A stretch of 49,364 bases of DNA from contig NZ_KB904762.1 of NCBI RefSeq assembly GCF_000380185.1, forward strand, positions 1-49,364, written 5' to 3'. Under the pieces are notes generated by a model that was given only the letters and a program-made list of their open reading frames with translations, made no database searches and was not told the origin of the DNA. The position numbers and the translations under genes are program-made. Below are positions 5,849 through 35,608 of the stretch, in pieces; position 1 is the first letter of the stretch; the number at the start of each line of letters is the position of its first letter. This DNA is from Thiofilum flexile DSM 14609 (GTDB lineage Bacteria > Pseudomonadota > Gammaproteobacteria > Thiotrichales > Thiotrichaceae).

Positions 5849-5891
5849 AATTTCTACCCTAATTTAAAAAAGATATTTAGATTGGCCTATT

Positions 5892-5921
5892 AATATCATC
5901 ATGGCGTTTTCAAATTGTCAA
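5892..5921 (-). promoter_or_regulatory. Likely sigma-70 promoter of the H-NS-family gene
   Basis: On the minus strand a perfect TTGACA (plus-strand 5916-5921) is followed after 18 bases by GATATT (5892-5897), a 4-of-6 match to the -10 box. The -10 lies 43 bases before the start codon. The -35 match is strong and the -10 weak. Confidence 0.5.
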
Positions 5922-6273
5922 GATTTAATAGCAAACGAATTATGAAATAATGCAAACTCGTGCAATTATTCTCTAGTGGATTAGTTTAAGTGGGTAGCTT
6001 TTGCGAAATACATGGGCGCTTAAAGTACTTTTAATATTTGGTGTATTGATGATAAGACAGATTTCTAGACAAAAATAGTATGAGATCGGTTAATCAATCT
6101 CTAATTAATTGGCTGTTCGCTATTAGTAGCTAACGAAGAATGCGCTAGTCGGGCTAACTAAAACGGAGTCACTATGCTTTGCTGTTGTGAGAGTGCTTGA
6201 TTAAGTTTAAATTATTATCAAAACTACCTTTATGACCGTTTACCCCGCTACTCCCTCTCTTAGTAGATTAAGC
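5922..6273. other. Intergenic stretch without a recognisable gene
   Basis: These roughly 350 AT-rich bases lie between the divergent H-NS-family gene and the PAS-GGDEF-EAL gene. I see no tRNA, no open frame with a ribosome site, and no long repeat. Stop codons are frequent in all frames. It presumably holds regulatory sequence for both flanking genes. Confidence 0.5.
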
Positions 6274-6282
6274 TGCTATACT
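6274..6282 (+). promoter_or_regulatory. Extended -10 promoter just before the diguanylate cyclase gene
   Basis: TGC followed by TATACT (6277-6282) is a TGn extended -10 element with 5 of 6 matches. Transcription would begin near 6289-6290. That leaves no room for a leader before the GTG at 6290 and favours the ATG at 6323 as the start. No convincing -35 box is seen. Confidence 0.45.
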
Positions 6283-6322
6283 GGCTCTAGTGGATAACAA
6301 TAACAACGATTCTGGTGATATA

Positions 6323-8290: not shown

Positions 8291-8386
8291 ACAGGTTTTG
8301 TAAGGTAAACTTGCTTAACAAACCCGCTTAATCTTAAGGTAGCGGTTATTGACTAATTAGCGAACTCTTAAGTTAAGGATAGTGTT

Positions 8387-8872
8387 GTGAGCCGTTTTTC
8401 CCTGTTAGCGGTGATTTTGATTCTTGTTCCCACCATTGAAATTTTTACTTTTGTACAAGTGGGGCAAAGTATTGGGTATTTACCTGCTTTATTAGTGCTG
8501 ATTCTAATGACCTTACTGGGCAGTTATTTATTGCGCAGGGAGGGACTCGCCACCGTGAGCCGGGTTGTGAGCAGTGTTGCCGCTGGGCAGCCCCCTGCTA
8601 TGGAAGTATTAGAAGGCTTGATGGTGGGTGTTGCTGCTTTGTTTTTGCTTATCCCCGGATTTGTGAGCGATATCATTGGCTTAACACTGTTAATCCCTTT
8701 CACCCGACGTGCCCTATTAAAGTTCTGGTTAGGGCGTAAATTGAAGAATGTACAAGATATAGCAGCCAATCTACGCACTAGTGCTAAGGTCGTTCCACCT
8801 GAGCAAATTGTGATGAAACCACAGGGGCAAACTCACTATGATTATGAGGGTGAGTATGTGCGTAAAGACTAA
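8387..8872 (+). CDS. fxsA: FxsA family inner-membrane protein
   Basis: This 161-residue protein has the FxsA pattern. The N-terminal segment contains PTIEIFTFVQVGQSIGY, a second helix leads to SYLLRREGL, and there is then a long hydrophobic pair containing LEGLMVGVAALFLLIPGFVSD. The C-terminal tail is charged and soluble. In E. coli, FxsA overproduction relieves F-plasmid exclusion of phage T7, but its normal role is unclear. The GTG start follows an AAGGAT ribosome site. The gene sits directly upstream of groES-groEL, as in many gammaproteobacteria, but the chaperonin genes have their own promoter. Confidence 0.9.
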   Translation: MSRFSLLAVILILVPTIEIFTFVQVGQSIGYLPALLVLILMTLLGSYLLRREGLATVSRVVSSVAAGQPPAMEVLEGLMVGVAALFLLIPGFVSDIIGLTLLIPFTRRALLKFWLGRKLKNVQDIAANLRTSAKVVPPEQIVMKPQGQTHYDYEGEYVRKD

Positions 8873-9362: not shown

Positions 9363-11003
<1,641 letters not shown>

Positions 11004-11902: not shown

Positions 11903-14491
11903 CTAATCTAAAAGCGTCGATAAAGGTACTTCTATGAGCTCATCCGCCGGATCAGGAGCCGAATAAATGGGACGCCTAGGTGCTTCAGCTCTGCGATACT
12001 GGGGCGGAATGATGGGTCTTCTTGTTGTTTGTACAGGTATGATTCGCGCCCTATCTGCCCGCCGCATGGTGTCCATATAGTCTTCTTCTACCGCCGGTTC
12101 AGCCCTATTATAACGAGGTCTTATCGGTGTTGCCGCATAGCTAGGCTGTTGTGCTGGTCGGCTGGGAGCAGCGCGACGAGTGGCAGGACGCGCTACGGTG
12201 GTACGTGGTGGTCTAGCCGGTTCGGCTTTAGGTACAGGTTCTGGTTGACGTGAGACAACAGGACGCCGCGTTACCGCCGTGGGTTGTATATCCGGTTTGG
12301 GACGGGCTACGGGTATTCTTTTGGCTGTAGTAGCCTCAGAAATAACAGTTTTCTGAACTCTAGGTGTCTCTGTTTTATCTCTACCCACTCTATCTCTAGA
12401 CGCTGTTGCGGCTCTATTCGTGCTTGCGACTACTTCGGGTTTATTGCGATCAGTTCGGTCTCTAGTTGGCGCTGCTGCCTCCGTTTTAGCTTTATAAACG
12501 GTAGTCGGTGTTTCAGCCTTAGCAGTAGTTTTTATGGTGTTGATAGTAGCCGGTGTTGGTGTGGCGACTACGGCTGTAGCTGTAGTTGGCAAACTAGCCG
12601 CTTGTGCAAGCGCTTGGGTAATATCCTGTGCGGAAAGCGCTTTTGAAGAGATATCCGTTTCCGTTGAAGTGTTATCTGTTGCGGCTTGCTCTGACACCAC
12701 CTCGGTCGTCTCAGCAACTTCGGTATTAGGTACGACTACTAATTCCGGTTGTGCCGTTTTTAAAGTTTGATAGGAGGCTTCTAACTGCGCTTGATTGCTC
12801 GCGACTAATTCTAACTTATACTGATTGATCAGCTCAGACGTATCAGTCAATAAGCTTTGTGTATCTTGAATCGTTTTAGCACTGATTTGTTGTTGAATCG
12901 CGGCCTGTTGTTTTTTTACTGTTTCTAAGAGTAAATAGTTCGCCTCAGGATGCTCAGGTTGACGGGTTAAGACTTGCGTTAAAAACAAGGCTGCATTTTG
13001 CTCACCATTGGCGGCAGTCCAACGCTGTTCAGAGAGGGCATCTTGAGCTTGAGCTAATAAGCGTTCTACTGCTAATTGTTCTGCTTGAGTAGATTTCAAT
13101 AGCTGCTCTAAAGAGGCTTGTTTCATATCGTACTGGGTTAAACTGAATTCTTTAATCCATTGGTTTGTTTGATTGAGCAAAGTATTGGCATGAACGAGGT
13201 CTTTAGCGTCCAGCAAGCTCTGTGCTTGAGTATGCTCATGTTGTATGGCTTGGTCTAGTAGTGGCAACCAAGTTTCGCGTTGGGTGGAGCTACTGAGTTG
13301 GCTGCGGATCTTGTCAACAATAGGCGTGAGATTAGCCGAGCTACCGAAAACAAATTGTTGTTTTAATTCGTTGCTCAGGGCGTTAAAAGTAGCTGTAGTC
13401 GGATCTATCTCTACAGGTGCTGGAGCAATGGGTGGTTGTGCTTCAGCACTTTGAGGGGGCGTATGAGTCGCTGGCTCAGCTTTAGTATTGGCGGCTGACT
13501 CATTATTAGTACCCGGTTTAACACTAGCCATCACGGTTGTGTGTGGATCTAAATAGGTCTCAGCCCGTTGGGCTAAATGGTGAACGGCTAAACCAGTAAT
13601 AGTCACTGCTGCGGCAACTGCTGTGGATAGTAGTATATTAGTGGTTGAACGTTTAGTGAGTTGCTTAATAAACAGTGCAGGTGATGCTTGGCGCTGCCCT
13701 GGTTGGAGCGTTAACCCTTGTTGTAAAGTTTCTTGGGCGTGTGTAGATAAGCCTTTAATAGGGCTTACTTGAGTATGACGCACCACCGCTTCTAGGGTAT
13801 GTTGCTTTTTAAAAGGCGCTTCGCCTGTTAAAAAGTGATAAGCCATCGCTGCCAAGGAAAAAACATCATCCTCTGCTTTAGGCACATCACCTACGGCTAC
13901 AGCCGGGCTGATATAACTCGAATTTAAGGTGAGACGATAATCCACATGATGAGCGGTTTTTTCAATATAGTGCCGAAGGGCATAAACCAAAGGTGCATTT
14001 AATAGCCGTACTGAACCATTATGCAATTGCAATGCCGCAGGTTCTAAAAAGCCATAAGTCGGTGGCAATAACTGGTTGAGGCTAGAGGATATAACACTGA
14101 GATAAACTTTTAGCTCTTGTAAAAGTCGGTGGGTATCTTTACCACCATGTAAATATTCGCTAAAGAGTTTACCTTCCGTATGCGGTAACACTAACCATAA
14201 ATTACCATTATCATTACCGCTATCGGTTACGATAGGTAAAATAGAGGAACTAGACTCGGTAAAGGGCATAAGCACTTCATAAAGTGCATCCTCAAAACCA
14301 TTCAATTGACTCAGTGCAGAACTGACTTTGAGTAATAGGACATGAGCATCGGGCGTTGCAGTGTCCTTTACTTCTAAATCACGCGCCCAATAAACATCCG
14401 CTAGGGCGGTACGTCCTAAACAACGTGTTAAAGAATAACGCCAACCCATCATAGGATGCAGTGGCGTAGTAGTAGACAAATCCGATACCAT
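11903..14491 (-). CDS. Membrane-anchored pseudokinase with Pro/Thr/Arg-rich C-terminal region
   Basis: The N-terminal 280 residues follow the Hanks-type serine/threonine kinase fold. There is a degenerate glycine loop (LGRTALADVYWARD, 25-38), a candidate VAIK lysine K55, the helix pattern DDVFSLAAMAYHFLTGEAPF (208-227), and a C-terminal PGQRQASPALF. The catalytic HRD/HGDLKP loop has become YGFLEPAALQL (146-156) and the DFG site reads LLNAP (163-167). Both catalytic aspartates are therefore missing, which makes it a pseudokinase. One membrane helix (about 284-304) follows. Next come a helical, Gln/Ala-rich region (about 360-590), possibly coiled coil or TPR-like, and a low-complexity Pro/Arg/Thr tail. 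It lies 76 bases after a 515-residue unknown gene on the same strand. The partner and pathway are unknown. Confidence 0.75.
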   Translation of the reverse strand: MVSDLSTTTPLHPMMGWRYSLTRCLGRTALADVYWARDLEVKDTATPDAHVLLLKVSSALSQLNGFEDALYEVLMPFTESSSSILPIVTDSGNDNGNLWLVLPHTEGKLFSEYLHGGKDTHRLLQELKVYLSVISSSLNQLLPPTYGFLEPAALQLHNGSVRLLNAPLVYALRHYIEKTAHHVDYRLTLNSSYISPAVAVGDVPKAEDDVFSLAAMAYHFLTGEAPFKKQHTLEAVVRHTQVSPIKGLSTHAQETLQQGLTLQPGQRQASPALFIKQLTKRSTTNILLSTAVAAAVTITGLAVHHLAQRAETYLDPHTTVMASVKPGTNNESAANTKAEPATHTPPQSAEAQPPIAPAPVEIDPTTATFNALSNELKQQFVFGSSANLTPIVDKIRSQLSSSTQRETWLPLLDQAIQHEHTQAQSLLDAKDLVHANTLLNQTNQWIKEFSLTQYDMKQASLEQLLKSTQAEQLAVERLLAQAQDALSEQRWTAANGEQNAALFLTQVLTRQPEHPEANYLLLETVKKQQAAIQQQISAKTIQDTQSLLTDTSELINQYKLELVASNQAQLEASYQTLKTAQPELVVVPNTEVAETTEVVSEQAATDNTSTETDISSKALSAQDITQALAQAASLPTTATAVVATPTPATINTIKTTAKAETPTTVYKAKTEAAAPTRDRTDRNKPEVVASTNRAATASRDRVGRDKTETPRVQKTVISEATTAKRIPVARPKPDIQPTAVTRRPVVSRQPEPVPKAEPARPPRTTVARPATRRAAPSRPAQQPSYAATPIRPRYNRAEPAVEEDYMDTMRRADRARIIPVQTTRRPIIPPQYRRAEAPRRPIYSAPDPADELIEVPLSTLLD

Positions 14492-14567: not shown

Positions 14568-16115
14568 TTAGGACGATCTATGGTCAATAGATTGGAGTAA
14601 ATCAATATGCAGCATTTGCCCAACGGCCTCTAAGGCTAGTTCCGAGCTGGCTTTTTGCGTTAAGGATAATAAGTAAGCGACAGGTAAATAAGCACCACCA
14701 CTTAATTGATTTACTTTAAGAACCTGCTCTATTTTTGCAAAAATAGGTTGTAGTTGGGTTAAAAGTGCAGGGTAAGACGGCTGACGAGTACGCAGCGTAC
14801 TAATCAGTTCATCAAAGTTTAACACTAACTCAGGAGGAGCGAGTGATGGCTCTGATACACCTAGCGCTTTGAATAAAGTGGGCTTTAAGTAGCTTAAGAT
14901 ATCCGCTTGTTGATTAGTTGTATGCCAGTCTTGGGTATCCCAATGCGGCTCAAGGCATTGTAAGAACTGCATTAATACCTCACCCACCCGCCAAGGTTGT
15001 AATACCAATTCTTGTTTAAAAGGGGTTAGCCAATCCGGCGCTAACTCTAATTGCACCATCCGATGTTGTTCGGAGTGTTGCACATACTGATGAGAGCCTA
15101 GTCCATAAATATCGGGAATCCGTCCCGCCCGCCAAATACGGCGGCCTTCACGCACCAAACGCTGTATTGTAAACCACGCGTCCTGACCATAGAGCTGCGT
15201 AATGGTGGCTTTATTCAGGGGGACATTCAAACCTAAATTAAGGGGTAAATAGACACTAGCCTCCATTAGTTGCACTTGAGTGGCTTCAATGAGTGCTATG
15301 GAGTCGCGCCCGCGTTGTTGCAAAATGGCTAAAACCTGCTGGCCTAACGCTTGAACCTTAGGCCAAGTATCATATTGCAATACATCAGAGCCACTCGGTT
15401 GGGCGGCAAAGCGTACCACTTTATGCAATAGCATAGTCCAGGTGCGGATATTGTTGAGGTAAGCCCGTTGTTGAGCAGGGGAGATAGGGCTAGGAAAGCG
15501 TAAACGCCACAGTAGAGCGGGATGGTCTTTAGGGTTAATATGTCCTGCAGCTTGTTCTGAGGCATAGTGGCGCGGGGTATCCACGGCAACAACACCCGCG
15601 CGCTGGGAGGTATCACAGACACCGATATAATGACGCACATGATCGATACTGAAATTTAGTAAAGATCGGCTTAAAATGGGGTCTTGTAAGGTTTGACGGG
15701 TGATAAAACGCTCAATAGGATTACGGTGTGAAGTACCTAAATACCATTCTCCGGGGGTAATATAACGCAATACATCACGCTGTTTAGAGCGCCAATTATT
15801 TTTAAAAGCAATGAGATGTAGTGCTTGCTCTGCTGGCAACAAAGTAGTAATCAAACGGGTTTGCTTATCGAGTAATAAGATCTTATTAAATAATTCAGAT
15901 GAGCTTTTGATTCCGTTATCATGCCATAGGGAATGAATCGCAGGTAAATTGAGCTGATAGTGAGAAGCAGGTAAAGGGCGTGCGTATTGCAAATGAGGGT
16001 TTTGTGCCATCCACTGATTAGCTTCCTCCTCCGTGAGCTGAGCCAATGAGGGCGGTTGTGGGCAGTGTAAAGCCATAGAGTGAGCCACTTCGTGATAAGT
16101 ACGAGGCTGATACAT
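14568..16115 (-). CDS. Large soluble protein of unknown function, divergent from the CHAT gene
   Basis: This 515-residue protein has no signal peptide, membrane helix or catalytic motif that I recognise. It is rich in Gln, Leu, His and Trp and looks mainly alpha-helical. One segment (about 340-390) contains REGRRIWRAGRIPDIYGLGS. A good ribosome site (AGGATCTCAGG) precedes the ATG at 16115. It is likely co-transcribed with the pseudokinase gene downstream and is divergent from the lipase-CHAT gene, with a shared 178-base promoter region. The linked arrangement suggests, but does not prove, a common process. Confidence 0.7.
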   Translation of the reverse strand: MYQPRTYHEVAHSMALHCPQPPSLAQLTEEEANQWMAQNPHLQYARPLPASHYQLNLPAIHSLWHDNGIKSSSELFNKILLLDKQTRLITTLLPAEQALHLIAFKNNWRSKQRDVLRYITPGEWYLGTSHRNPIERFITRQTLQDPILSRSLLNFSIDHVRHYIGVCDTSQRAGVVAVDTPRHYASEQAAGHINPKDHPALLWRLRFPSPISPAQQRAYLNNIRTWTMLLHKVVRFAAQPSGSDVLQYDTWPKVQALGQQVLAILQQRGRDSIALIEATQVQLMEASVYLPLNLGLNVPLNKATITQLYGQDAWFTIQRLVREGRRIWRAGRIPDIYGLGSHQYVQHSEQHRMVQLELAPDWLTPFKQELVLQPWRVGEVLMQFLQCLEPHWDTQDWHTTNQQADILSYLKPTLFKALGVSEPSLAPPELVLNFDELISTLRTRQPSYPALLTQLQPIFAKIEQVLKVNQLSGGAYLPVAYLLSLTQKASSELALEAVGQMLHIDLLQSIDHRSS

Positions 16116-16293: not shown

Positions 16294-19200
16294 ATGAGTC
16301 AGTTAGTACTGAGTGGTAGTGTGATCACTACTGCATATACCTTACCGATTATGACAACGACTGACCTGATGGATTGGACATTGCTAGGGCAATGGTCGGT
16401 TAGTGAAGGGCAAGAGCGTCAGCTCATTACCTTACCTACAACAGCCCTGATTCAATTAGAGTTTAATGAGGGGCGTAGTCAGTATTTAAGTATTGCTGAG
16501 GCAGAAAGGCGTTATCAATTAGATTTTACCAATCCCCCCCCGGCTTTGGTGACTTTGCGGGTGTTTCAGCTTGAGATTACTCACACAACCGCGCCACTGA
16601 CCACTTTGCTTAATCTAGAACAGCAATATGCACGTTTAGGTCTATATCAATTTGCTCCTCATTTACCCTTTAGCTTAAAGCCTATTAATTCAGCGCCCTT
16701 AATTAAGCGTACTCAGCCCGTCTTATTGTTGTTTCCAGATGCATTGCAAAATCTCACCGATAGTTTTGCTACTTGGTGGGAGGCACGCCCTAATTATAAT
16801 CCTAATAGTTATCTAGAGCGTTTACTGCGTCCCTATGGTCAGCAGGTGTTTGGCCTACAATATTCTGCTTTTATTACTCACCCTCTACAGACCTTGCAGC
16901 AATTAGTGCAATGGTTACCACAAGAGGTGGAGCTGCATTGTATTGGCTATGGGGTGGGGGGCGTACTGGCTGAATTACTCGCGCAAGGCAGTCAAGCAAG
17001 CTGGGATAATAGCTTGACTGAGCTTGAAAGCGCTGGGGCAGCCGAGTTAGCTAAAGCACTAAAAACCTTAACCCAACACCTGCAAAGTAAGCAGATTACC
17101 GTTAGCAAAGTGGTCACTTTAGGTGCGCCTTTGCGGGGCTGGGGCTTGGTGAATTTAGAATTCAGTGAATTAGTGAGCTGGTTGAATGCTGTACAGCAAC
17201 AGGCAGATCCCTCCGCGACACCTAATCTTGATTATCGAGTCACATGGCTAGGGCTAGCTGTAGCCTTAAAACTCATCCCTAGTGATCTTGAAGGTTTACT
17301 GGCGCTGCAGCCCCATAGTGATTTGATTCGTCTTCTGAATAATCCACAAACTCAACTCATAGGGCAGGCTGCGCAATTAGTTAGTCATAAACAAGCTGAT
17401 ACTTTAGATCAGTGGTTAGCGGATAATATCAGTACACTGGTTAGCTCAGAGGCTTATGATGGTGTGGTTAGCCTACAAGCAGCTTATGGCGGTGCGCAAC
17501 GTAGTGAAGGGCATTATGCTTATATAGCACAGGGTAAAACTCAGCATTTTAATTATGGCTGGGATAATAGTGTATTAGAGCGGATAGTGTCAGCCTTACA
17601 AACGCCTATATTGGATACCTATTGGCAATTACCAGAGCCGCCTAAGGCTGCTTATCGTTCCGCTCCTATAGCCACAATGCCCGCTACCCAAGGCATAGCG
17701 ATCTTTATTCCGGGGCTATTAGGCTCTGAGCTATTAGTTGGTGAAAATCCGGTATGGTTGGATGAGTCCGCCTTACATTGGGGTGATTTTGCCAAGCTTA
17801 CTATGAGCAATGCTAAGGTACAGGTGGGTGCTGTCATCAGTGAGCACTATACCCCATGGTTAGAGTATCTCAGTACCCATTATCAAGTTATTCCCTTTGC
17901 TTATGACTGGCGGCAAGCCACCTCGGTGGTGGTCAATCAATTAGCGACCTTATTAAAGTCATTATTACAAGAACGTAAACAGCAAGGGTTGAGCTATCCG
18001 ATTCGGATTGTTGCCCATTCAGCCGGTGGTTTTATTGCGTGGAGCTTAGTACAAACGGAGCCGCTGTTATGGCAGCGTTTAACCGTAGAGGCGGATACGC
18101 GGATTTTATTATTAGGTGCGCCTTTGCAGGGGACAGCACATATAGCTCAATGGCTATATAGTGAAGAGCGTTTCATTGAATATCTGAGTAGTGTGGCAGG
18201 GAGAAATAACCAGCGCGAGACTATTGCCACCCAATTAGCTAGCTATCAAGGACTAGTCGATTTACTCCCCGCAGAGTTTTTAACCCCAGAGAACTGGACA
18301 GATCAGCTTAACAAGGATGCAACTTTGCAAGAGCGCCTACAATCCGCGCAAACCTTGCAGAATACTATCAATAGCGGGCAAAGTCTGAGTTTAGATCGTA
18401 TCGCCTATGTACAAGGGGAGAGTGGTTTAACGCCTGCACAGCGCAGCCAAGAGGCCAATTGGTTAGCGACCCGCTCTGGTGATGGTGTGGTGACTTGGCG
18501 CAGTGTACCTAGCGTGTTGGCACAATGGCGGGTTCCCTTAGAGCATGGGTTGATGCTGAATAATGCCCGTTATTTTTCCGCCTTCACCGAACTATTGGAG
18601 CAGGGGCATACTACGGCTTTAGAGCGGGTATTACCTACAACAGCTAGTGAAAGCTTAGTGCGTTTACCCCCTTATACGCTCAGTCTTTACCCCACTATTG
18701 AACTGATTCGGGCGGCAGCTTTTGGCTATCACACCCTTGAAACCAGAACAACTACTTTGCCCCCCGTCGATTTATGGGTTACTCAGGGAAATCTGGAGCA
18801 TGTGAGCCGCATATTAGTGGTGGGGCATTATGAGGGTAATGGGATTGTCAGTGCTGAAAGTGCTTTGGATCAGCGTTTAAATGGGCGTTTACGAGAATTA
18901 CACCGTTTAGGTATCTATCCTGCGGCTTTGAATACAGCCGATTTGATTTTAAATACTGGCAAGCAACCGGCAGGTGCTTTGGTTATTGGCTTAGGTGAAG
19001 CGGGTAAACTCACTACTCAAGCACTCACCCAGACGTTTGCTCAGGGCTTATTACGTTATGCCATGAGTCAAATGCCTATGATACACGCTTTAGGCGATGC
19101 CGGGCATTTTACTAAGGCATTGAATATCAGTAGCTTATTAATCGGTACTCAGGCTAGTGGTTTAAGCCTGCGCGAGGGTTTGCTTGCGATTTTGCGGGCG

Positions 19201-21537
19201 GTGCAAGCAGCCAATACGGCTTTACTTAAACTCGCAGGCAGTCAAACTGCGCTACGTTTTCAATCATTAGAACTAGTCGAGCTATATGCCGACAAAGCTA
19301 TTGAGGCTGCTAAGCACTTACAAGAATTAGTGCAGCAAGGCGAGTTTCAGAATGATTTTAGTCTCAGTAGTTGGGTACGTAATCTACCCGGCGGCTATAG
19401 TCGGGTGGTGTATAGTGAGGCTAGTGGCTGGTGGCAGCGTTTGCAAATTATAGGGGGCATGCAGGGTTTAAGCTTTTTAGTGTTGACCGAGCGGGCGCGG
19501 GCTGAAGCGATTTTACAGCCCACACAACGTCAATTAGTCGATCAATTTGTCTCCAAAGCGATTAACCAAGCAACAACGGCGGAGAGTTGCGAGGTGGGTA
19601 AAGTATTGTTTGAAATGCTATTACCTAATGCTTTAAAAGAGCAAACATTACACTCTGAGCATTGGGTATTAGTCCTCAATAGTGAGGCCGCTGCTTATCC
19701 TTGGGAGTTATTACAAGATCGCCAAGATCCAGACCAGATTCCGCTAGCGGTACGCACCGGATTAGTACGCCAATTACAAACCACACAATTTAGGCAAGTG
19801 GTATTAAATCCCAGTGGGCGCTCAGCTTTGGTGGTGGGAGATCCTGTCCTTACTCTATTGCCACGTCTATCGGCAGCACGGCAAGAGGCTCACAGTGTGG
19901 CTAATTTATTAGAGCAATATGGCTTTAATGAAGTGGTGCGGGAAGTTGAGAGCACGGCTGAATCGATTATTTGTGCTCTGCATAATCGTGAAGTACGGGT
20001 TCTGCATTTAGCAGGACATGGCGTCTATCACTATAACCGTGGTGATGGTGAGTTAGTGACGGGGATGGTGATTGGTGATAATGAGTTTCTAACCGCCGTT
20101 GAAATTGAGCAAATGCGCCAAGTCCCCGAATTGGTATTTGTCAACTGCTGCCATTTGGGCAAAGTCGATCAAGAGGTTAGTAGCTTAAGCCAAGCAAGCA
20201 CAGAAGAGCGCCATCAATTTGCCGCCAGCTTTGCAGAAAGCCTGATTGCTATGGGGGTGAGAGTTGTCATTGTAGCCGGTTGGGCAATTAGTGACTTAGC
20301 CGCACGTTTATTTGCAGAAACTTGTTATCGAGCATTATTAACAGGGTGCCGTTTTGGTGATGCGGTATTACAAGCACGGCGTGATACGTGGCGAGTTTAC
20401 CCCAATTCTAATACTTGGGGAGCCTATCAATGTTATGGTGATCCAGACTATCGCTTAGTACAAAGCAATGCCTTGGGTGAGGATAGCAGTGAGTATAGCG
20501 ATGTTCCGCAGTATATAGCGCCCATTGAGGTCAGTACTGAGCTGGATAATTTAATCAATGCTACCGATAGTTTGCGCCTAGGTGAGTATCAATGGTTACT
20601 CAATAAGGTTAATTTAATTGCCCAAGTAACACCCACCGATTGGCTAAAAGAGGCTGGTTTATTAAGTCGATTAGGGCGGGTGTATAGCAAGCTAGATCAG
20701 TTTCCCCAAGCATTGCAAGCCTATAAACAAGCCCTCTATGCCGAAAAAGCCGAGTATCTCATGAGTACTTGGGATGATTTAGTCAGTGTCTTAACGGCGT
20801 ATGGGTTGCAACTCCATCAATCTCCAGCCTTATTAGAGCATAATCCTATTGCCACTACGGCTCAGGAGCTAATGGCAGAAGCGCTAAAAATACTCGATTG
20901 GCTAGATCAATTAGGGCAAGTGGTAACGCCACCCCCCGGATTTATTAATGGCTCAACATTAGGGCAGCCCCAAAACCGTTTAGAAGAGCGTGCTAAGTAT
21001 TTCAAACGCCTTAGTATGATGGAGCAAAATGAAGCCCAAACCCATACGCTAAAACTGATGGAGGCCGCTTATTGGCGGGCGCATAGTGAGTTTTGGAATA
21101 GCAAGCGGCAAGTTGCCCCTTATCCCTTGGTCAATTGGTTGACCTGCCGTTTAGTGCGTTATCATCGTCAAGAGCAATTACTGACCGAGGGCGATTGGGG
21201 TATTTTAACAGAATGGCTAGCGCGCGCCGAGGCGGAGGCTAATAGTGAGGAACAGCATGCCCCTACGTTTTTAACGGCGGTGAATCAAGCCGAGGTATTG
21301 CTAGTGCATTATTTAATGCCTGATAGTCAGCCTAATTTAGCGACTATTATTCAATATTATGAAAAGGCACTAGAACGCGGAGCACCCCCGCGTAGAATTC
21401 GCTTTGTAAGCGAGCATCTGGAGTTTTTAACGGTTATGTTAAAACAGACAGTTTTTGTCGAGGCAGAACGCCAAGCCTTGCAGGATTTAAAAGGGCAATT
21501 AAAACAACGCTGGCAACTACTACCTGTTAATACTTAA
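16294..21537 (+). CDS. Giant lipase-like and CHAT (caspase-like) protease fusion
   Basis: The 1747-residue protein has several parts. An N-terminal alpha/beta-hydrolase-like region (about 140-430) has a degenerate GYGVGG in place of the nucleophile motif. A second hydrolase, resembling lecithin:cholesterol acyltransferases (about 465-760), has FIPGLLGSEL, the nucleophile motif AHSAGG (S576), D730 in SGDGVV and H751 in PLEHG, so its triad looks intact. A middle region (about 835-1000) weakly recalls the N-terminal domain of M17 aminopeptidases. A CHAT domain (about 1120-1395) has HLAGHG (H1242) and FVNCCHLG (C1286), the catalytic dyad of this caspase/separase-like family. The tail is helical with at least one TPR-like unit (about 1457-1486). 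The ribosome site AAGGAAG precedes the ATG. No signal peptide is seen, so it should be cytoplasmic. The domain calls are from motifs. The function, perhaps defence or regulated cell death, is inference. Confidence 0.85.
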   Translation: MSQLVLSGSVITTAYTLPIMTTTDLMDWTLLGQWSVSEGQERQLITLPTTALIQLEFNEGRSQYLSIAEAERRYQLDFTNPPPALVTLRVFQLEITHTTAPLTTLLNLEQQYARLGLYQFAPHLPFSLKPINSAPLIKRTQPVLLLFPDALQNLTDSFATWWEARPNYNPNSYLERLLRPYGQQVFGLQYSAFITHPLQTLQQLVQWLPQEVELHCIGYGVGGVLAELLAQGSQASWDNSLTELESAGAAELAKALKTLTQHLQSKQITVSKVVTLGAPLRGWGLVNLEFSELVSWLNAVQQQADPSATPNLDYRVTWLGLAVALKLIPSDLEGLLALQPHSDLIRLLNNPQTQLIGQAAQLVSHKQADTLDQWLADNISTLVSSEAYDGVVSLQAAYGGAQRSEGHYAYIAQGKTQHFNYGWDNSVLERIVSALQTPILDTYWQLPEPPKAAYRSAPIATMPATQGIAIFIPGLLGSELLVGENPVWLDESALHWGDFAKLTMSNAKVQVGAVISEHYTPWLEYLSTHYQVIPFAYDWRQATSVVVNQLATLLKSLLQERKQQGLSYPIRIVAHSAGGFIAWSLVQTEPLLWQRLTVEADTRILLLGAPLQGTAHIAQWLYSEERFIEYLSSVAGRNNQRETIATQLASYQGLVDLLPAEFLTPENWTDQLNKDATLQERLQSAQTLQNTINSGQSLSLDRIAYVQGESGLTPAQRSQEANWLATRSGDGVVTWRSVPSVLAQWRVPLEHGLMLNNARYFSAFTELLEQGHTTALERVLPTTASESLVRLPPYTLSLYPTIELIRAAAFGYHTLETRTTTLPPVDLWVTQGNLEHVSRILVVGHYEGNGIVSAESALDQRLNGRLRELHRLGIYPAALNTADLILNTGKQPAGALVIGLGEAGKLTTQALTQTFAQGLLRYAMSQMPMIHALGDAGHFTKALNISSLLIGTQASGLSLREGLLAILRAVQAANTALLKLAGSQTALRFQSLELVELYADKAIEAAKHLQELVQQGEFQNDFSLSSWVRNLPGGYSRVVYSEASGWWQRLQIIGGMQGLSFLVLTERARAEAILQPTQRQLVDQFVSKAINQATTAESCEVGKVLFEMLLPNALKEQTLHSEHWVLVLNSEAAAYPWELLQDRQDPDQIPLAVRTGLVRQLQTTQFRQVVLNPSGRSALVVGDPVLTLLPRLSAARQEAHSVANLLEQYGFNEVVREVESTAESIICALHNREVRVLHLAGHGVYHYNRGDGELVTGMVIGDNEFLTAVEIEQMRQVPELVFVNCCHLGKVDQEVSSLSQASTEERHQFAASFAESLIAMGVRVVIVAGWAISDLAARLFAETCYRALLTGCRFGDAVLQARRDTWRVYPNSNTWGAYQCYGDPDYRLVQSNALGEDSSEYSDVPQYIAPIEVSTELDNLINATDSLRLGEYQWLLNKVNLIAQVTPTDWLKEAGLLSRLGRVYSKLDQFPQALQAYKQALYAEKAEYLMSTWDDLVSVLTAYGLQLHQSPALLEHNPIATTAQELMAEALKILDWLDQLGQVVTPPPGFINGSTLGQPQNRLEERAKYFKRLSMMEQNEAQTHTLKLMEAAYWRAHSEFWNSKRQVAPYPLVNWLTCRLVRYHRQEQLLTEGDWGILTEWLARAEAEANSEEQHAPTFLTAVNQAEVLLVHYLMPDSQPNLATIIQYYEKALERGAPPRRIRFVSEHLEFLTVMLKQTVFVEAERQALQDLKGQLKQRWQLLPVNT

Positions 21538-27063: not shown

Positions 27064-28722
27064 ATGATACGCGCCGTTTGTAATCACAAGCTTGGCCTAC
27101 GAAACCCAATCGTGTTGTCACCCACTATCTTATTTACCCTTAAGCCATTAACTCACTATCTTATGGAGCGTTATGCTGTGCTCATTAGAACACTATTGTT
27201 ATGGTGGCTCAGAGGACTACTGATTTATACAGTGACCCTCATGAACGGCTATGCAAGTCCCGATACAGTAAAGCCCGTGGGATGTAAGGCTTATGTACAA
27301 GAACAAGCACGCCTCTTAGCAACGAAACCCTATCAAGTACCTGCTGCGATTGATGAAACCGCTGTACGTAAGCTTGATTATGATGGTTATCGTCACTTGC
27401 GTTTTCGACCGGAAAAAACGGTTTGGCGTCAGGAGCAACTACCTTTTCAGTTAGAGCCTTTGCCCCCCGGACTGAGCTTTAGACGTCCTGTGTCACTCTA
27501 TACTTGGGAGCAAGGTGAAGCGAAAGTCCTACCCTTTCAAACCGACTATTTTGAGTCTGCCGAGCTGTTGGCTGGGGTCGATAAAACGGAATTGGGTTTT
27601 ACAGGTTTTCGCATTCTTTATCCACTAAAAAAAGATGAATTTCATAGCGAATTTTTCGTGTTTCAGGGGGCTAGCTATTTTCGTTCGCGCAGTATTGATC
27701 AAGTTTATGGTTTATCGGTACGTGGTCTAGGTATTAATACAGACCTTGAGGGACAAGAAGAGTTTCCCGATTATCGTGCTTTTTGGATAGAAAAGCCTAC
27801 TATTAATGCAAGCACTTTAACATTATGTGCTTTATTGGATAGTCCTTCAGTCACAGGGATGAGTGAATTTATTATTAAGCCAGGTCACGAAACAACAGCA
27901 GATGTAGATACGGTGTTATATTGGCGTAATGCACCGCTGAATGTCGCCGTATCGCCCCTAACTAGCATGTATTTTCATGGAGAAAATTCAAAGCATCCTA
28001 TGGGCGATTATCGACCTGAGGTACACGATTCTGATGGTTTACTCATAGACGGTAATATGGGATTGGAATGGCATCCTTTGTATCAGCCTGCGCATTTTAC
28101 CGCGCACTCGATTGCGAGCAGACATTTACGGGGGTTTGGTTTATTACAACGGGATCGTAATTTTGATCATTACCAAGATTTAGAGGCACATTATCAGGAG
28201 CGTACTAATGTATGGGTAACACCTTTGAATGATTGGGGTGCGGGTGCGGTACGTTTAGTGCATTTCCCCACTCAGTCGGATGTATTGGATAATGTGGTTG
28301 CTTATTGGCAACCTGAGCAGCCACAAACCCATTGGCAATACCGTTTAACGTGGTTACAACAAGACCCACCTCAGCATCAACTAGGTAAGGTTCATGCGAC
28401 CCGTATTGCGACAAAAAATGTTGATAGTCTGCCTAATCAAGAGGGGGTATTACGTTTTTTTATCGACTTTAAGGATATTTTACCAACCACTGAACCAATT
28501 GAGATTGAGATAGGTCAATCAGACAACTTGCTTATACAATCAAGCCAGTTGTTAAAGAATCCTTACTTAAAGCACGGTCAGCGTTTAGTGATAGTGACTA
28601 AACCTATACCTGAACGTTGCCAAGAACCCATGGTTGTATTTGCCCGTTTAAAGGCTGGCGCACAGCCTTTAAGTGAAATGTGGGTTTACCCCATTTCTTC
28701 TGAATATTGTCAGCGCAATTAA
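27064..28722 (+). CDS. opgG: Periplasmic glucan biosynthesis protein, OpgG/OpgD family
   Basis: OpgG/OpgD proteins act in the periplasm on the beta-1,2-glucan backbone made by OpgH, and recent work assigns them glucanase activity (family GH186). The family sequence spans most of the protein: YDGYRHLRFRPEKTVW, DTDLEGQEEFPDYRAFWIEKP-type stretches, SMYFHGENSK, and the DSDGLLIDGNMGLEWHPL segment of the active-site region. The signal-like hydrophobic stretch is at residues 42-62 when read from the ATG at 27064, which has an AGAG ribosome site. An in-frame ATG at 27163 would give a more usual 30-residue signal peptide but has no ribosome site. I list the longer form and remain unsure of the start. 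OpgG and OpgD cannot be separated here. Confidence 0.87.
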   Translation: MIRAVCNHKLGLRNPIVLSPTILFTLKPLTHYLMERYAVLIRTLLLWWLRGLLIYTVTLMNGYASPDTVKPVGCKAYVQEQARLLATKPYQVPAAIDETAVRKLDYDGYRHLRFRPEKTVWRQEQLPFQLEPLPPGLSFRRPVSLYTWEQGEAKVLPFQTDYFESAELLAGVDKTELGFTGFRILYPLKKDEFHSEFFVFQGASYFRSRSIDQVYGLSVRGLGINTDLEGQEEFPDYRAFWIEKPTINASTLTLCALLDSPSVTGMSEFIIKPGHETTADVDTVLYWRNAPLNVAVSPLTSMYFHGENSKHPMGDYRPEVHDSDGLLIDGNMGLEWHPLYQPAHFTAHSIASRHLRGFGLLQRDRNFDHYQDLEAHYQERTNVWVTPLNDWGAGAVRLVHFPTQSDVLDNVVAYWQPEQPQTHWQYRLTWLQQDPPQHQLGKVHATRIATKNVDSLPNQEGVLRFFIDFKDILPTTEPIEIEIGQSDNLLIQSSQLLKNPYLKHGQRLVIVTKPIPERCQEPMVVFARLKAGAQPLSEMWVYPISSEYCQRN

Positions 28723-31245: not shown

Positions 31246-31791
31246 TTAGGGAGCATTCTTGGCTAAAGCTACAAAAATATAATCAGTTGTTTTGGAGTTT
31301 TTTGGGTAGCGAAGAAACTGTATTCCAGTTAAATAATTTACTGCCCCATCACTGATATTAGTCAATATATTGATTTTGGGTTCAGTCATTTTTGCTTTAT
31401 AGCTATTAAACTCAGAGTTTGCTAGTAAATTAGCATTGAATGTTTGGAGATTTTGCTCTTGAATAGCAGGGTTTTTTTGAAGCTCAATGCTATTCCAAAC
31501 TATTTTTTTATTATTGAAATCATATAAATAAGCAGAAAAAGACTGATTGGCTAAAGAGCAGCCAGGTGATGCTAAAAGAGTTTGTACTTCTGACTTAAGT
31601 GAGTCTGTAACTTTAAAATTACCCTCATGATACTCTAAATAACCCAACGTATTTAAGGCTTTAGACTGTAACTCATTAGCTATTTCCTGCTGCTTTAGGT
31701 GCGCTACTGCGATTCTAGCGCCGAGGACATAGCCAGTCAGTAGCAAGAGAGGTCCAGTAACTAATCCTATAATGATATGTTTTACTCTCAT
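31246..31791 (-). CDS. Membrane-anchored protein of unknown function
   Basis: This 181-residue protein has a single N-terminal membrane helix (about 5-28, HIIIGLVTGPLLLLTGYVLG). An extracytoplasmic domain follows with two short basic/hydrophobic clusters and strand-like segments. I recognise no family. The codon use looks more AT-rich than that of its neighbours (many AAA, TTT and ATA codons), which may indicate acquisition. It is convergent with opgH and shares its terminator. A ribosome site (AAGGGGG) precedes the ATG. The upstream region carries the decayed gene end described below. Confidence 0.65.
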   Translation of the reverse strand: MRVKHIIIGLVTGPLLLLTGYVLGARIAVAHLKQQEIANELQSKALNTLGYLEYHEGNFKVTDSLKSEVQTLLASPGCSLANQSFSAYLYDFNNKKIVWNSIELQKNPAIQEQNLQTFNANLLANSEFNSYKAKMTEPKINILTNISDGAVNYLTGIQFLRYPKNSKTTDYIFVALAKNAP

Positions 31792-31877
31792 AAAAACCCC
31801 CTTATTTAAGTAAATAATTGTTTAAGCCAATTAAAACTATAAAGAACTTTTTATGATTAGACTAATAGAAAATTTAA

Positions 31878-31908
31878 AGCACTCTAAAGTTATATTAATT
31901 AGAGTGCT
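31878..31908 (-). terminator. Orphan terminator-like hairpin
   Basis: AGCACTCTAA (31878-31887) and TTAGAGTGCT (31899-31908) form a perfect 10-bp stem with an 11-base loop. On the minus strand it is followed by TTTAAATTTT. It lies 71 bases downstream of the decayed gene end at 31980-32049, as expected for that gene's former terminator. The GCACTC/GAGTGC halves recall CIRCE but the spacing is wrong. Confidence 0.5.
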
Positions 31909-31979
31909 GGATAATGAGCAATGAATTGTATAAAATAATAGCCAGTTAAATAAGGGCTGAACTACCATACTAATCTTAA

Positions 31980-32049
31980 TTAAATAATCCTATGGCTCAC
32001 AAATTTGCTCCTATTATCGAGAATTTCACCACATTGTCTAAAGTTTAAA
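31980..32049 (-). pseudogene. Duplicated 3' end of the glutathionylspermidine-synthase-like gene
   Basis: This 70-base stretch matches 32791-32860, the 3' end of the downstream gene, at 61 of 70 positions by direct comparison, and 48 of the first 50 agree. Read on the minus strand it keeps the frame and stop, ending in SKFVSHRII like the intact gene. The two copies are direct repeats flanking the Uma2 gene. The fragment has no start and cannot be expressed on its own. Confidence 0.85.
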
Positions 32050-32167
32050 TACCCGTCTGTTTGCTAGGTGGCATTCCGTAGGTTTTTAATGCTTTAAGCT
32101 TTTAATTATGCTTTAGCATGGTTAGTTGCGCTATACTGGGCACATAGGTTGTTATGAGAGTTAGGTT
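32050..32167. other. Short upstream region of the Uma2 gene
   Basis: These 118 bases precede the Uma2 gene. A TATACT box (32132-32137) about 30 bases before the ATG is a candidate -10 element without a clear -35. The 376-base gap 31792-32167 as a whole contains this region, the decayed gene end and the orphan hairpin, and no other gene. Confidence 0.4.
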
Positions 32168-32755
32168 ATGTTGGCGACAAAAGTTGCAGAGGATCGCATC
32201 ACCGAACAGGCTTATTTAGCGGGTGAGCAACTCGCTACAGTGCGTCATGAGTATGTGGCAGGTAAGCTCTATGCTATGGCTGGTGCGAGTCGGCGGCATA
32301 GTACGATTGCTTTTAATACGGCTTTTCAGTTGCGCTTAGCCGCACAGGGGAGTGCTTGTGAAATTCATTTGGCTGATGTGAAAGTCTATGCCGAAAAATC
32401 AAAAGCTTATTATTACCCTGATGTCATTGTTAGTTGTGAGGCAGAGAATCACGCTTATTATCTTAGCCAGCCTTGTTTGATTGTCGAGGTGACTTCTAAA
32501 TCGACCGAGTGGCGGGATTATACTGAAAAGGCATTGGCCTATCAGAAACTGGCCTCCTTAAAAGCTTATTTGGTTGTGGCACAGGATAAGGTGCAGGTCA
32601 CTTTATATTATCGAGATGCGGAAGGTGCGTGGGGTGTAGCACGGTTTACGGAGCTAGCACAGCGTATTACCTTGCCATGTCCAGAAACAATCCTACTGGT
32701 GGGGGATATTTATGCGGGAGTAGAAGGGATTCCATTAGAGGATGAAGGATCGTGA
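32168..32755 (+). CDS. Uma2 family (DUF820) PD-(D/E)XK endonuclease-like protein
   Basis: This 195-residue protein has the Uma2/DUF820 layout. The N-terminal EYVAGKLYAMAGAS is followed by a restriction-endonuclease-like core: YYYPDVIVSCE (Asp about 78) and CLIVEVTSKSTEWRDYTEKALAYQ (Glu in IVEV, then Lys). KLASLKAYLVV follows. These residues fit the PD-(D/E)XK catalytic pattern. Members are numerous in cyanobacteria and filamentous sulfur bacteria, and their biological role is poorly known. The gene is flanked by a 70-bp direct repeat of the neighbouring gene end, which suggests recent insertion. It is convergent with the glutathionylspermidine-synthase-like gene. Confidence 0.88.
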   Translation: MLATKVAEDRITEQAYLAGEQLATVRHEYVAGKLYAMAGASRRHSTIAFNTAFQLRLAAQGSACEIHLADVKVYAEKSKAYYYPDVIVSCEAENHAYYLSQPCLIVEVTSKSTEWRDYTEKALAYQKLASLKAYLVVAQDKVQVTLYYRDAEGAWGVARFTELAQRITLPCPETILLVGDIYAGVEGIPLEDEGS

Positions 32756-32778
32756 TTCAACTTCTTTAAATCACGATC
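32748..32778. terminator. Hairpin overlapping the Uma2 stop codon
   Basis: GATCGTGATT (32748-32757) pairs perfectly with AATCACGATC (32769-32778) around an 11-base loop. It spans the Uma2 stop codon and lies just outside the end of the convergent gene. It has no long T tract, so its termination efficiency is uncertain. Confidence 0.5.
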
Positions 32779-32790
32779 GCTAAAAGTAAT

Positions 32791-33969
32791 TTAAATAATC
32801 CTATGGCTCACAAATTTACTCATATTATCGAGAATTTCACCGCCCCGTCTAAAGCCTAACCCACAGCCTTCCCATGCAAAAAAGACCCCGGCCTGATAAG
32901 TGCGACCTTCAGCATCTTTAGCCATCTGAGCAAACTCTTGATAGACCGTGCGATAACGCTCGTATTCACCACCAATACTATGCAGTGCTTTGCCTGCTGC
33001 ATCGAGAATCGTAGTATTTGCCCCTTCACGCCCAAACATTTTTTTAGCGACTTGTTTTTTACCTTGTAAGGGTTCAAAACGTGTTTCTAATAAATAAGGC
33101 GAATCAGGGAATAGTTCATAAAGCACTTTCATAATGCCTTTACTTTGGAAAATAAGGGTATAAGCGGGGTTTAAAATAGTCCCTAATTGATTACGGGTAA
33201 TATCATCTAAAATGCCTACAATACCATCGTTTTGTAGCGCAATATCTTCCCAAGGGTACAATTTAAACCAATAATCAAAGCGTGTACCTTCAGGATTAAA
33301 AATACCGGCTTCTTCCTGAAAACCTACCTCATGCATATAACAAAAATCGGTTTGAAAGCCTGCTTCACTAGCTATTTGTTGTAAAAAGCGCGTGGTGCTT
33401 TCATCTTCAGGTAGATTACTCATGCATGAGAATAGGATATTTTGATAATTATAATACTCATTAAACGTATCGGGTTCTTCTTCACCCGTAATCATGCGCC
33501 GAAAACTATTACCAATGGCCTGATAAACATTATTAAATTGTTTATCTTCATTCATACCATTCGCTTTGAGTAAGGCCCATTGCACCACTGCCGTTTCAAA
33601 TAGGCTAGTTGGAGTGTCGGCATTAAACTCAATTAATTTAATCGGCAAACCATCAATGCCACCGGCTAAATCAAAGCGCCCATAAATATGGCGATCATCA
33701 TTTTCCCAACTGCGTTTAATAGGATTAATCAGATTAAAAGGAATATCTAATTCAAAAAAGAGATCATTATCAATCACATACTGTGCAGCCTCGACATACA
33801 TGTCATAAAGCTCATTCACGGCGGTGTAATAAGCGTCCGCTTCTGCTTCGGTAACAGGCACAATTTCATCGGTGATGTAGGGCGTGCCATCTGGGTCGGT
33901 ATGCCAATTCATGCCCACATCTTCCATGAGCTGATTGCTAATGGCTTGCACTTTTTCCGTTTTAATCAT
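32791..33969 (-). CDS. Glutathionylspermidine synthase family protein (YgiC-like)
   Basis: This 392-residue protein matches the ATP-grasp C-domain family of glutathionylspermidine synthase, as in E. coli YgiC and YjfC. Family stretches include DRHIYGRFDLAGG, IKLIEFNADTPTSLFETAV, FKLYPWEDI, LNPAYTLIFQSKGIMKVLY, KKMFGREGANTTI, and a C-terminal VFFAWEGCGLGFRRG. The amidase half of bifunctional Gsp is absent, so it would form an amide or peptide bond with an unknown pair of substrates. It starts 3 bases after the lipoprotein gene 33973-34638, in the same order as E. coli ygiB-ygiC. Its last 70 bases are duplicated at 31980. Confidence 0.88.
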   Translation of the reverse strand: MIKTEKVQAISNQLMEDVGMNWHTDPDGTPYITDEIVPVTEAEADAYYTAVNELYDMYVEAAQYVIDNDLFFELDIPFNLINPIKRSWENDDRHIYGRFDLAGGIDGLPIKLIEFNADTPTSLFETAVVQWALLKANGMNEDKQFNNVYQAIGNSFRRMITGEEEPDTFNEYYNYQNILFSCMSNLPEDESTTRFLQQIASEAGFQTDFCYMHEVGFQEEAGIFNPEGTRFDYWFKLYPWEDIALQNDGIVGILDDITRNQLGTILNPAYTLIFQSKGIMKVLYELFPDSPYLLETRFEPLQGKKQVAKKMFGREGANTTILDAAGKALHSIGGEYERYRTVYQEFAQMAKDAEGRTYQAGVFFAWEGCGLGFRRGGEILDNMSKFVSHRII

Positions 33970-33972
33970 GAA

Positions 33973-34638
33973 TCAGCCTCCTGCCGAGCCAGCAGGTGAA
34001 CGGCTACCTGAGGAACTACTAGACGAGTTGCTTCCCCCACCAAAGAAACCACTGCGCGGTTGGGTGGTCGAGGGTTTAGTCGCACTATTGGTATTGCTAG
34101 CCCCCGGTGTACGAGAACTGCTCATGGTGGATTGAGCGCGAGTATTTTGCTGCTGCTGATGTTGTTGATAGTTAGAGTTACCCATCAGCTTATTAGCAAT
34201 CATGCCACCCACTAAAGCCCCGGCGGCTGAGGCTAAAATAGTTTCACCTAAGCTTAAACCCTGATTTTCAGCCACAGGTTTTGTGAGATTAGAGCTGCCA
34301 TTTTCGACGCGTTTGGCTTCTTCTTCGGCAATTTTCTTGAGTTCTTCTTCGGTTAAAACACGCTCTTTACCGTCGAGTCCCGTGACAATGGCTTTAGTGC
34401 CTGAGCTAGAGGGAATTTTTTCCGTGAGCTGGTAAGTGTCTGGATTCGCTGCAGTTTGTTTGAGCAGTAATACAAAAGTTTGTTCTTTATCGCTAGTCGC
34501 CTGTGAAATCGTCTCTTGCTTGGGTTTTTCGGGCGGTGGTGGGGGTTGATCGCCACCACAGCCTTGTAAACTCGCCATAATCACAGCACCAATGCTACCT
34601 ACCATCGAATAGGACGCAATTTTTCTAATATAAGGCAT
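33973..34638 (-). CDS. YgiB-like lipoprotein with Ser/Gly-rich tail
   Basis: This 221-residue protein has a lipoprotein signal ending in SLQGC (Cys about 27), followed by Pro-rich sequence and a small conserved-looking domain (about 52-95). A glycine-zipper-like membrane-interacting segment comes next (LASAAGALVGGMIANKLMG, about 135-153). The tail is Gln- then Ser/Gly-rich and ends in GFFGGGS...SAGG. E. coli YgiB (DUF1190) has a similar length, a lipobox, a Gly/Met segment and a Ser/Gly end, and is likewise encoded just before YgiC. I infer equivalence from position and architecture, because direct sequence similarity is weak. Confidence 0.6.
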   Translation of the reverse strand: MPYIRKIASYSMVGSIGAVIMASLQGCGGDQPPPPPEKPKQETISQATSDKEQTFVLLLKQTAANPDTYQLTEKIPSSSGTKAIVTGLDGKERVLTEEELKKIAEEEAKRVENGSSNLTKPVAENQGLSLGETILASAAGALVGGMIANKLMGNSNYQQHQQQQNTRAQSTMSSSRTPGASNTNSATKPSTTQPRSGFFGGGSNSSSSSSGSRSPAGSAGG

Positions 34639-34799: not shown

Positions 34800-35129
34800 A
34801 TGTACGTCATGGGCATTAAAGAATTACAAACTAACCCTGGTAAGTTAAGCCATTTGTTACAAAATAATGAATATATGCTTATCACCCGACGCGGTGAGCC
34901 TTTAGGTGTTGCATTACCTTTTAGTGATCAGCTAATCGAAAACGGGCTGAAAAATTGGATGGCGCTTAAAGCTTTTCAAAGTGGTGATTTGAGCCTTGGG
35001 CAATTGGGTAAGGTATTAGGAAAAACTAAACATGCCACCTTAGAATTACTGGGGGAGCTTAATATTCCTTTTGCTGATTATGATTTACAAGAGGATTTGC
35101 AAACACTAGATGAGCTGTTTGTGGCATGA
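34800..35129 (+). CDS. UPF0175 family antitoxin with Phd-like start
   Basis: This 109-residue protein begins with a segment resembling Phd/YefM antitoxins (MGIKELQTNPGKLSHLL and LITRRGEPLGVALPF). It continues into an UPF0175-type domain with AFQSGDLSLGQLGKVLG, TLELLGELNIPFADYDL and an acidic DLQEDLQTLDELF tail. Such proteins are the usual antitoxin partners of DUF3368 PIN-domain toxins. The AAGGTG ribosome site precedes the ATG. The stop overlaps the next gene in an ATGA, giving coupled translation. The Phd-like plus UPF0175 fusion in one short protein is slightly unusual, because many UPF0175 members lack the first part. Confidence 0.85.
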   Translation: MYVMGIKELQTNPGKLSHLLQNNEYMLITRRGEPLGVALPFSDQLIENGLKNWMALKAFQSGDLSLGQLGKVLGKTKHATLELLGELNIPFADYDLQEDLQTLDELFVA

Positions 35130-35608
35130 AATCTGTCATTGTGAGTGACACCACGAGTTTGATTGTGTTGGAGAAGTTAGCGGCATTAGAACTATTATGT
35201 AAGCTATTTGATCAAATTTTGATACCTGCTGTAGTATTAGCTGAGTTGCAGGCAGGCTCACCTCATATCAAGCAACTACTAGAACCTCTACCTTGTTTTA
35301 CTGTGGTGGATGTAGCCACTTCAAAGCGTCTTACAGCTCTTTTACTATTGTTAGATGCAGGAGAAGCAAATGCTATCGAGTTAGCGGCTAGTCTTAATCT
35401 GCCTTTGATTATTGATGAGCGTAAAGGTCGACAGATTGCTAAGCAGTTCGGCATTCGTATCACAGGGTTTGCCGGATTGCTGATACAGGCGCACCGTAGC
35501 AAGCTTATAGATACTCAGACAGCTCAGGCGATGTTAGATCAAGCAATTACTCATGGATTAAGGCTTGCGCCATCGCTCCAACAACAAGTGCGAGATATGC
35601 TAGAGTGA
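35126..35608 (+). CDS. DUF3368 PIN-domain toxin
   Basis: This 160-residue protein is a PIN-fold RNase toxin. The first acidic residue is D8 in VSDTTSL, the second E40 in VVLAELQAG, the third E80 in LDAGEANAIELA, and D97 in LIIDERKGRQIA completes the metal site. The FGIRITGFAGLLIQAHR segment is characteristic of DUF3368 members. It is cotranslated with the UPF0175 antitoxin gene. All catalytic acids are present, so it should be an active endoribonuclease when free of antitoxin. Its RNA target is unknown. Confidence 0.9.
   Translation: MKSVIVSDTTSLIVLEKLAALELLCKLFDQILIPAVVLAELQAGSPHIKQLLEPLPCFTVVDVATSKRLTALLLLLDAGEANAIELAASLNLPLIIDERKGRQIAKQFGIRITGFAGLLIQAHRSKLIDTQTAQAMLDQAITHGLRLAPSLQQQVRDMLE

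Follow-up and report, generated by a model that had tools for sequence, protein, structure and literature searches.

Integration of an element into the 3' end of a gene yields a restored gene end, the cargo and a displaced native end. Displaced ends have also been described at the 3' ends of type VI secretion effector genes, where they are interpreted as scars of homology-facilitated illegitimate recombination: a module anchored by homology replaces the 3' part of the gene and the old end is orphaned downstream (PMC5361080). Mobile endonuclease open reading frames (ORFs) of fungal mitochondria have a similar order of inserted gene end, endonuclease ORF and displaced native end (PMC3630166). 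Uma2 proteins are predicted to adopt a PD-(D/E)XK nuclease fold (PMC1913061, PMC2701414), and the family is expanded in other bacteria (PMC1274311). Here we describe a Uma2 gene that lies between two copies of the end of a glutathionylspermidine-synthase-family ATP-grasp gene (GSPS) in Thiofilum flexile DSM 14609. The window, meaning the whole stretch of DNA analysed, comprises positions 1-49,364 of contig NZ_KB904762.1, and the locus occupies 31878-33969. We give about an even chance to the reading that the arrangement is the scar of a one-off recombination that brought Uma2 in.

The GSPS gene (32791-33969, minus strand) is intact, encodes 392 amino acids (aa), matches PF03738 (GSP_synth, E 2e-118) and shares 56-78% identity with genes in 10 genomes of the family. 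Its last 69 nucleotides (nt), which are the last 23 codons with the stop codon included (inner copy, 32791-32859, minus strand), recur in the same orientation at 31980-32048 (outer copy) with 61 of 69 positions identical (88%). The copies are in register, with a start-to-start spacing of 811. In a comparison of the window against itself this pair is the only repeat listed at E <= 1e-3, and a chance origin is ruled out by the strength of the match (E 2.5e-18). The direct repeat that a preliminary description reported around Uma2, as 70 bp at 87% identity, is therefore real. No homology continues past the stop codon (anchored extension score 3, equalled by 71 of 200 shuffles) or beyond the intragenic edge of the repeat (anchored extension score 0). 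The spacer of 119 nt that separates the outer copy from Uma2 (32049-32167) shows no likeness to the GSPS gene, since 154 of 300 shuffles were equally good, and is single copy in the genome. The upstream region is likewise single copy, the repeat itself aside. A non-homologous joint is presumed at the spacer edge, 32048/32049.

Uma2 (32168-32755, plus strand) is intact, convergent with GSPS, 195 aa long and the only gene within the insert, as judged on ORFs of at least 60 aa. It matches PF05685 (E 1.2e-27; 96.9 bits against a curated cut-off of 27) and the PADLOC family PDC-S03 (E 3.4e-23), and keeps the residues that are invariant among nine aligned members, including Y83, P84, D85, E107, S110, D117 and K121. 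The family match, these conserved residues and the many paralogues per genome, 13 in T. flexile, agree with what characterizes Uma2 (PF05685, COG4636). The gene is thus a lone predicted nuclease and a candidate defence gene, and would have been the passenger of the event.

The two gene ends have not been preserved equally. Relatives come from other genera of the family, the genus itself being represented by one genome, and the conservation of the GSPS end was compared in 12 of them (L061, L063 and duplicate records of the same genomes omitted; labels in L, C and G are our own for loci, contigs and genomes). The outer copy is judged to be the decayed one, and the inner copy the working gene end, because five of the eight differences (positions 4, 5, 14, 16 and 38 of 69) are changes of the outer copy at positions where the inner copy matches 11 or all 12 of the relatives. 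The remaining three of the eight are third codon positions that vary among the 12. The last stretch common to both copies is absent from all 12 relatives, and therefore the copies separated after the split from them.

A terminator-like hairpin had been noted beyond the decayed copy; it is present and begins 71 nt past the stop codon of the outer copy (31878-31908, minus strand). It has a 10 bp stem and an 11 nt loop (-13.3 kcal/mol) and is followed on the minus strand by the U-rich tail UUUAAAUUUU. It has a z score of -4.8, and none of 200 shuffles was as good. A consensus terminator scan that allows loops of 3-8 did not list it. This hairpin is likely the former terminator of GSPS. A hairpin between the convergent genes (32748-32778; z -4.8 on the minus strand and -2.2 on the plus strand) has no U-run on either strand, so GSPS transcripts may run on through Uma2 in antisense as far as hairpin 31878-31908.

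In the proposed recombination the incoming DNA would have brought from a donor the end of a GSPS gene and, beyond it, Uma2 in convergent orientation. On one side homologous recombination would have taken place inside the resident GSPS, and on the other a non-homologous joint would have formed 69 nt ahead of the stop codon of the resident gene. In this single event the incoming end would complete GSPS, and the last 69 nt of the resident gene, with the terminator beyond, would be stranded 811 nt downstream, where the end would then decay. The repeat would stop at the stop codon because donor and recipient differ past that point; its other edge, the proposed joint, falls at an arbitrary site within GSPS. 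One event of this kind would account for both edges of the repeat, the functional inner end, the decayed outer end and the hairpin beyond it, all of which are observed directly, as is the absence of a recombinase match. Recombinase and transposase families have no match in 38 of the 39 window ORFs (27064-28722 excluded), 11 of the 38 being without any family match. The locus would then document gene gain and would not point to a novel type of mobile element.

Homology on one side with illegitimate joining on the other has been described in competent bacteria and, at low frequency, in E. coli conjugation (PMC3240628). Homology-facilitated illegitimate joining has been proposed for the displaced effector ends (PMC5361080) and for variable segments in E. 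coli (PMC2884548). The window differs from the effector ends in that the replaced part keeps its function and a near-identical sequence, the passenger is a convergent Uma2 gene, and no donor or empty strain was seen (PMC5361080). The closest look-alike in the literature consulted is the fungal mitochondrial mobile ORF with a duplicated gene C-terminus (PMC3630166). The window departs from it in having an antisense ORF of another nuclease family, near-identical ends and no recurrence for Uma2. In the Uma2-family/DUF820 literature, searched in part, no description was found of Uma2 genes between duplicated gene ends, and a limited search found nothing on Uma2 in Thiothrix.

The window was compared at E <= 1e-4 with 17 relative GSPS loci, each 4.6 to 11.2 kb long and together drawn from 14 distinct genomes. 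The gene immediately upstream of GSPS (33973-34638, minus strand; 221 aa; match to NF003146 below the cut-off) adjoins it in 17 of 17. Matches to Uma2, to the gene at 31246-31791 and to the glucosyltransferase gene are absent from all 17, as is a second GSPS gene end. The genes that follow GSPS vary widely among the relatives and no locus shares those downstream in the window; the relatives are therefore not strict empty sites.

Stranded gene ends occur at low frequency around unrelated genes, likewise with one repeat edge at a stop codon, which favours the recombination reading, and are not specific to Uma2. Stretches of the T. flexile genome amounting to approximately 1.25 Mb (33%) were surveyed for gene-end repeats, with all 13 Uma2 genes placed in them by design. 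Matches were found for 17 of 832 3' ends and 12 of 766 5' ends, and in the loci of the family for 6 of 362 and 5 of 309, respectively, genes in overlapping stretches being counted more than once. The table of repeat pairs omits L112, L115, L118, L203 and L204 (more than 12 repeat pairs each), and the rows for L182, L189, L219 and L221 of the T. flexile genome were excluded from closer inspection. Eight of the 17 3'-end matches were inspected and three are clean scars: the window, an ABC permease gene (L184) and an hsdM gene (L214). The others are a tandem duplication (L214, 4447-6468), repetitive or paralogous proteins (L172, twice, and L214, 6713-7639) and a 29-nt match internal to another gene (L207). 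The nine matches outside this set span 126-150 nt and were assumed to be tandem paralogues. Seven of the 12 5'-end matches were inspected. One is a displaced start (L220, contig C16), in which a gene start at 10737-10780 is a copy, 44 nt at 77%, upstream of the intact gene (11989 onwards); the others are paralogues or internal matches. Given this displaced start, nothing special to 3' ends is established, nor is an excess of 3' over 5' gene-end repeats.

At the hsdM locus (contig C9) the order is hsdM, yhcG, hsdM end and hsdS. The 44-nt hsdM end is present at 13738-13781 and 14847-14890 (93%). The new end has an ATGA overlap with yhcG, and the stranded copy directly precedes hsdS, its in-frame reading ending in an ATGA overlap with hsdS. 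YhcG is a DUF1016 protein, a PDDEXK nuclease by Pfam's name. Of 12 related hsdM loci, 11 continue with an HsdS-like match without a YhcG, and the twelfth ends at a contig edge. Among 25 of 30 YhcG loci that could be tested (five were too short), four have repeats, and the hsdM locus is the one gene-end case; the other repeats are one of 33 nt off the gene end (L284) and two of 24 nt. The permease locus (contig C57) would be an older-looking instance of the window anatomy: the gene end at 14783-14861 recurs from 15345 (80 nt at 71%; alignment score 43, the highest of 1000 shuffles being 27), and the stranded end lies beyond a convergent 125-aa ORF that has no Pfam or PADLOC match.

A further case occurs in a relative (G074, L145), where 183 nt of the end of an SLFN_AlbA_2 gene recur (6790-6972 and 8054-8235, 87%) and the copies enclose a TumE/HVO_A0114 toxin-antitoxin pair. 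Genes from the genomes of two other species group with the intact end (support 0.935), and its own stranded copy falls outside this group; in the three nearer genomes, 20 of the 22 sites at which the copies differ agree with the intact one. One short alignment thus speaks for an outside origin of the intact end. A limited literature search found no report of toxin-antitoxin genes between gene-end direct repeats. The tandem duplication in L214 (contig C9) is a contrasting case, in which a gene 3' end and its downstream flank at 6319-6528 are repeated at 7734-7863, and glycine-rich genes (6713-7639 and 8057-8476) follow the two copies. By its sequence this is a plain tandem duplication, because the homology extends beyond the stop codon and the intervening gene is itself present twice.

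The 3'-end matches in the family are at L113, L115, L122, L145, L155 and L162. L155 is a tandem paralogue pair, and L115 has 51 nt of a Uma2 end approximately 2.5 kb away. A Uma2 fragment at 6565-6674 of L162 (G070) was considered as a natural experiment with empty and donor forms and was rejected as a multi-step rearrangement. The fragment lies beyond a UPF0175-like/PIN pair (5755-6560), is internal to Uma2 and is about equally near to six Uma2 genes, its own included (93.6-96.4%). The order of Uma2, PIN and the UPF0175-like/PIN pair differs among G063, G074 and G075. In the window a UPF0175-like antitoxin and PIN-type toxin pair lies at 34800-35608, immediately upstream of the GSPS operon, and the L162 pair, which has the same family matches, adjoins Uma2 in G070, where gene order varies between genomes.

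The other Uma2 genes do not share the anatomy. Whether they too are flanked by gene-end repeats had been raised as a check on the idea of a cassette; the other 12 in T. flexile have no direct repeat of more than 18 nt among the matches listed (best five per gene, E <= 0.5, 2-kb flanks). Across 78 Uma2 genes of T. flexile and the family (1.2-kb flanks; one T. flexile gene counted twice) repeats were found at two, the window and L118, which is tandem-repeat DNA, and the window is the sole gene-end case. In the same test 21 of 386 comparison genes have repeats, an unclean control in that several of these are the scar cases themselves. A repeated Uma2 cassette with gene-end repeats was rejected on these counts (0 of 12 and 1 of 78). 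The closest relatives of the window gene are 61-66% identical and belong to other genera of the family. DNA similarity to it was seen in 12 of 19 relative loci and is confined to the gene. Direct repeats occur at three of these 19 loci: L085 (an intergenic repeat of 31 nt, one copy of which separates two tandem Uma2 genes), L073 (22 nt) and L077 of genome G012. The last is a 51-nt intergenic repeat (86%) around Uma2 and its neighbours (130-180 and 2899-2949), and both copies are outside ORFs of at least 70 aa.

Several points weigh against the recombination reading. Neither a donor form nor a strict empty form was found among the relatives. The copies in the window differ only as decay predicts, so that a local duplication would fit the sequence equally; because they share an end unseen in the relatives, the window sequence agrees with a very closely related donor and with a local duplicate alike. 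The genome has a ComEC gene, yet so do 10 of 14 control genomes, and its presence therefore says little about natural competence. The genome holds a tandem duplication that includes a 3' end (L214, 6319-6528 and 7734-7863). At L145 the two outgroups split, with 10 of the 22 sites siding with the intact copy, 4 with the stranded copy and 8 mixed, again in one short alignment.

A local tandem duplication of the segment with the GSPS end, followed by deletion of most of one copy and with Uma2 within or entering the gap, is possible though unlikely. It would explain why both copies share sequence unseen in the 12 relatives, and L214 demonstrates that gene-end repeats in this genome also arise when a gene 3' end is duplicated together with the gene after it, for which reason we keep it as a rival. 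However, both marks of the L214 case, homology that extends beyond the stop codon and a doubled intervening gene, are missing from the window. No second GSPS end was seen in the 17 relative loci, and at least two or three events would be needed. Duplication of the whole gene followed by decay, the alternative offered in the preliminary description, found no direct support, there being no homology beyond the 69 nt and no second end in those loci; deletions could have removed the remainder. The same description had suggested that a Uma2 cassette inserted at the gene end and rebuilt it, as in site-specific integration. The part of this that is supported is an interposed piece with Uma2 and a functional end, a decayed outer end and the hairpin; the part that is not supported is site-specific integration as a habit of Uma2, given the lack of a recombinase match in the ORFs searched, the results for the other Uma2 genes and the occurrence of the anatomy around unrelated genes.

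Integration that restores the gene end is accordingly improbable in our view, whether an element used a site at the GSPS end and later kept Uma2 only, or an integrase acted in trans. The layout of restored end, cargo and displaced native end is that of known elements integrating into gene 3' ends, but the window has no integrase family in 38 of 39 ORFs, none of the other 12 Uma2 genes is flanked likewise among the matches listed, and the similar scars elsewhere also enclose just one or two genes. The 27-nt shared end is absent from viral contigs (exact matches only), and a phage attachment site was rejected on that result. Most doubtful is gene-end homing, in which Uma2 would cut near the GSPS end and repair would install Uma2 together with a replacement end. 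The layout is identical in the fungal mitochondrial case (PMC3630166), and in the surveyed part of the genome the genes enclosed in two of the three clean cases, Uma2 and YhcG, are of the PD-(D/E)XK type. Against this, gene-end cases make up just 1 of 78 Uma2 genes and 1 of 25 YhcG loci, no Uma2 lies beside GSPS in the 17 relative loci, and the sample included all 13 Uma2 genes, which raised the odds of meeting one. The ORF of the third case has no Pfam match, and the case in the relative is a toxin-antitoxin pair. By analogy, it would be very surprising if lone PD-(D/E)XK genes such as Uma2 and YhcG spread in bacteria by homing of this kind, with a cut inside the 3' end of a host gene, repair adding the nuclease and a replacement end, and the native end stranded. 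A diversity-generating retroelement was also rejected: the sole RVT_1 match of the genome is on contig C37, and the GSPS copy is the conserved one.

Genomes frequently gain and lose lone nuclease and toxin-antitoxin genes that have no mobility gene next to them. Stranded gene ends mark the place and mode of entry and show which end is older, and no close relative is needed to look for them. Two of the three clean 3'-end scars in the surveyed 1.25 Mb enclose PADLOC candidate defence genes (PDC-S03 and PDC-S02). A systematic scan could reveal whether the stranded-end route is a common entry for such genes.

Other genes of the window include the 181-aa gene at 31246-31791, which has no Pfam match. 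Its residues 11-103 are 34% identical to part of a 490-aa frame on contig C13, and it is perhaps a shortened paralogue. A 15-nt inverted similarity (93%), which may be due to chance, connects the start of this gene (31784-31798) with the sequence just upstream of Uma2 (32147-32161). A 1747-aa protein with a CHAT protease-like domain is encoded at 16294-21537, adjoined by large ORFs at 11903-14491 and 14568-16115 that are without a Pfam match. The gene at 35806-36726 matches PF00905, and its product may, by its motif, be a relative of class D beta-lactamases.

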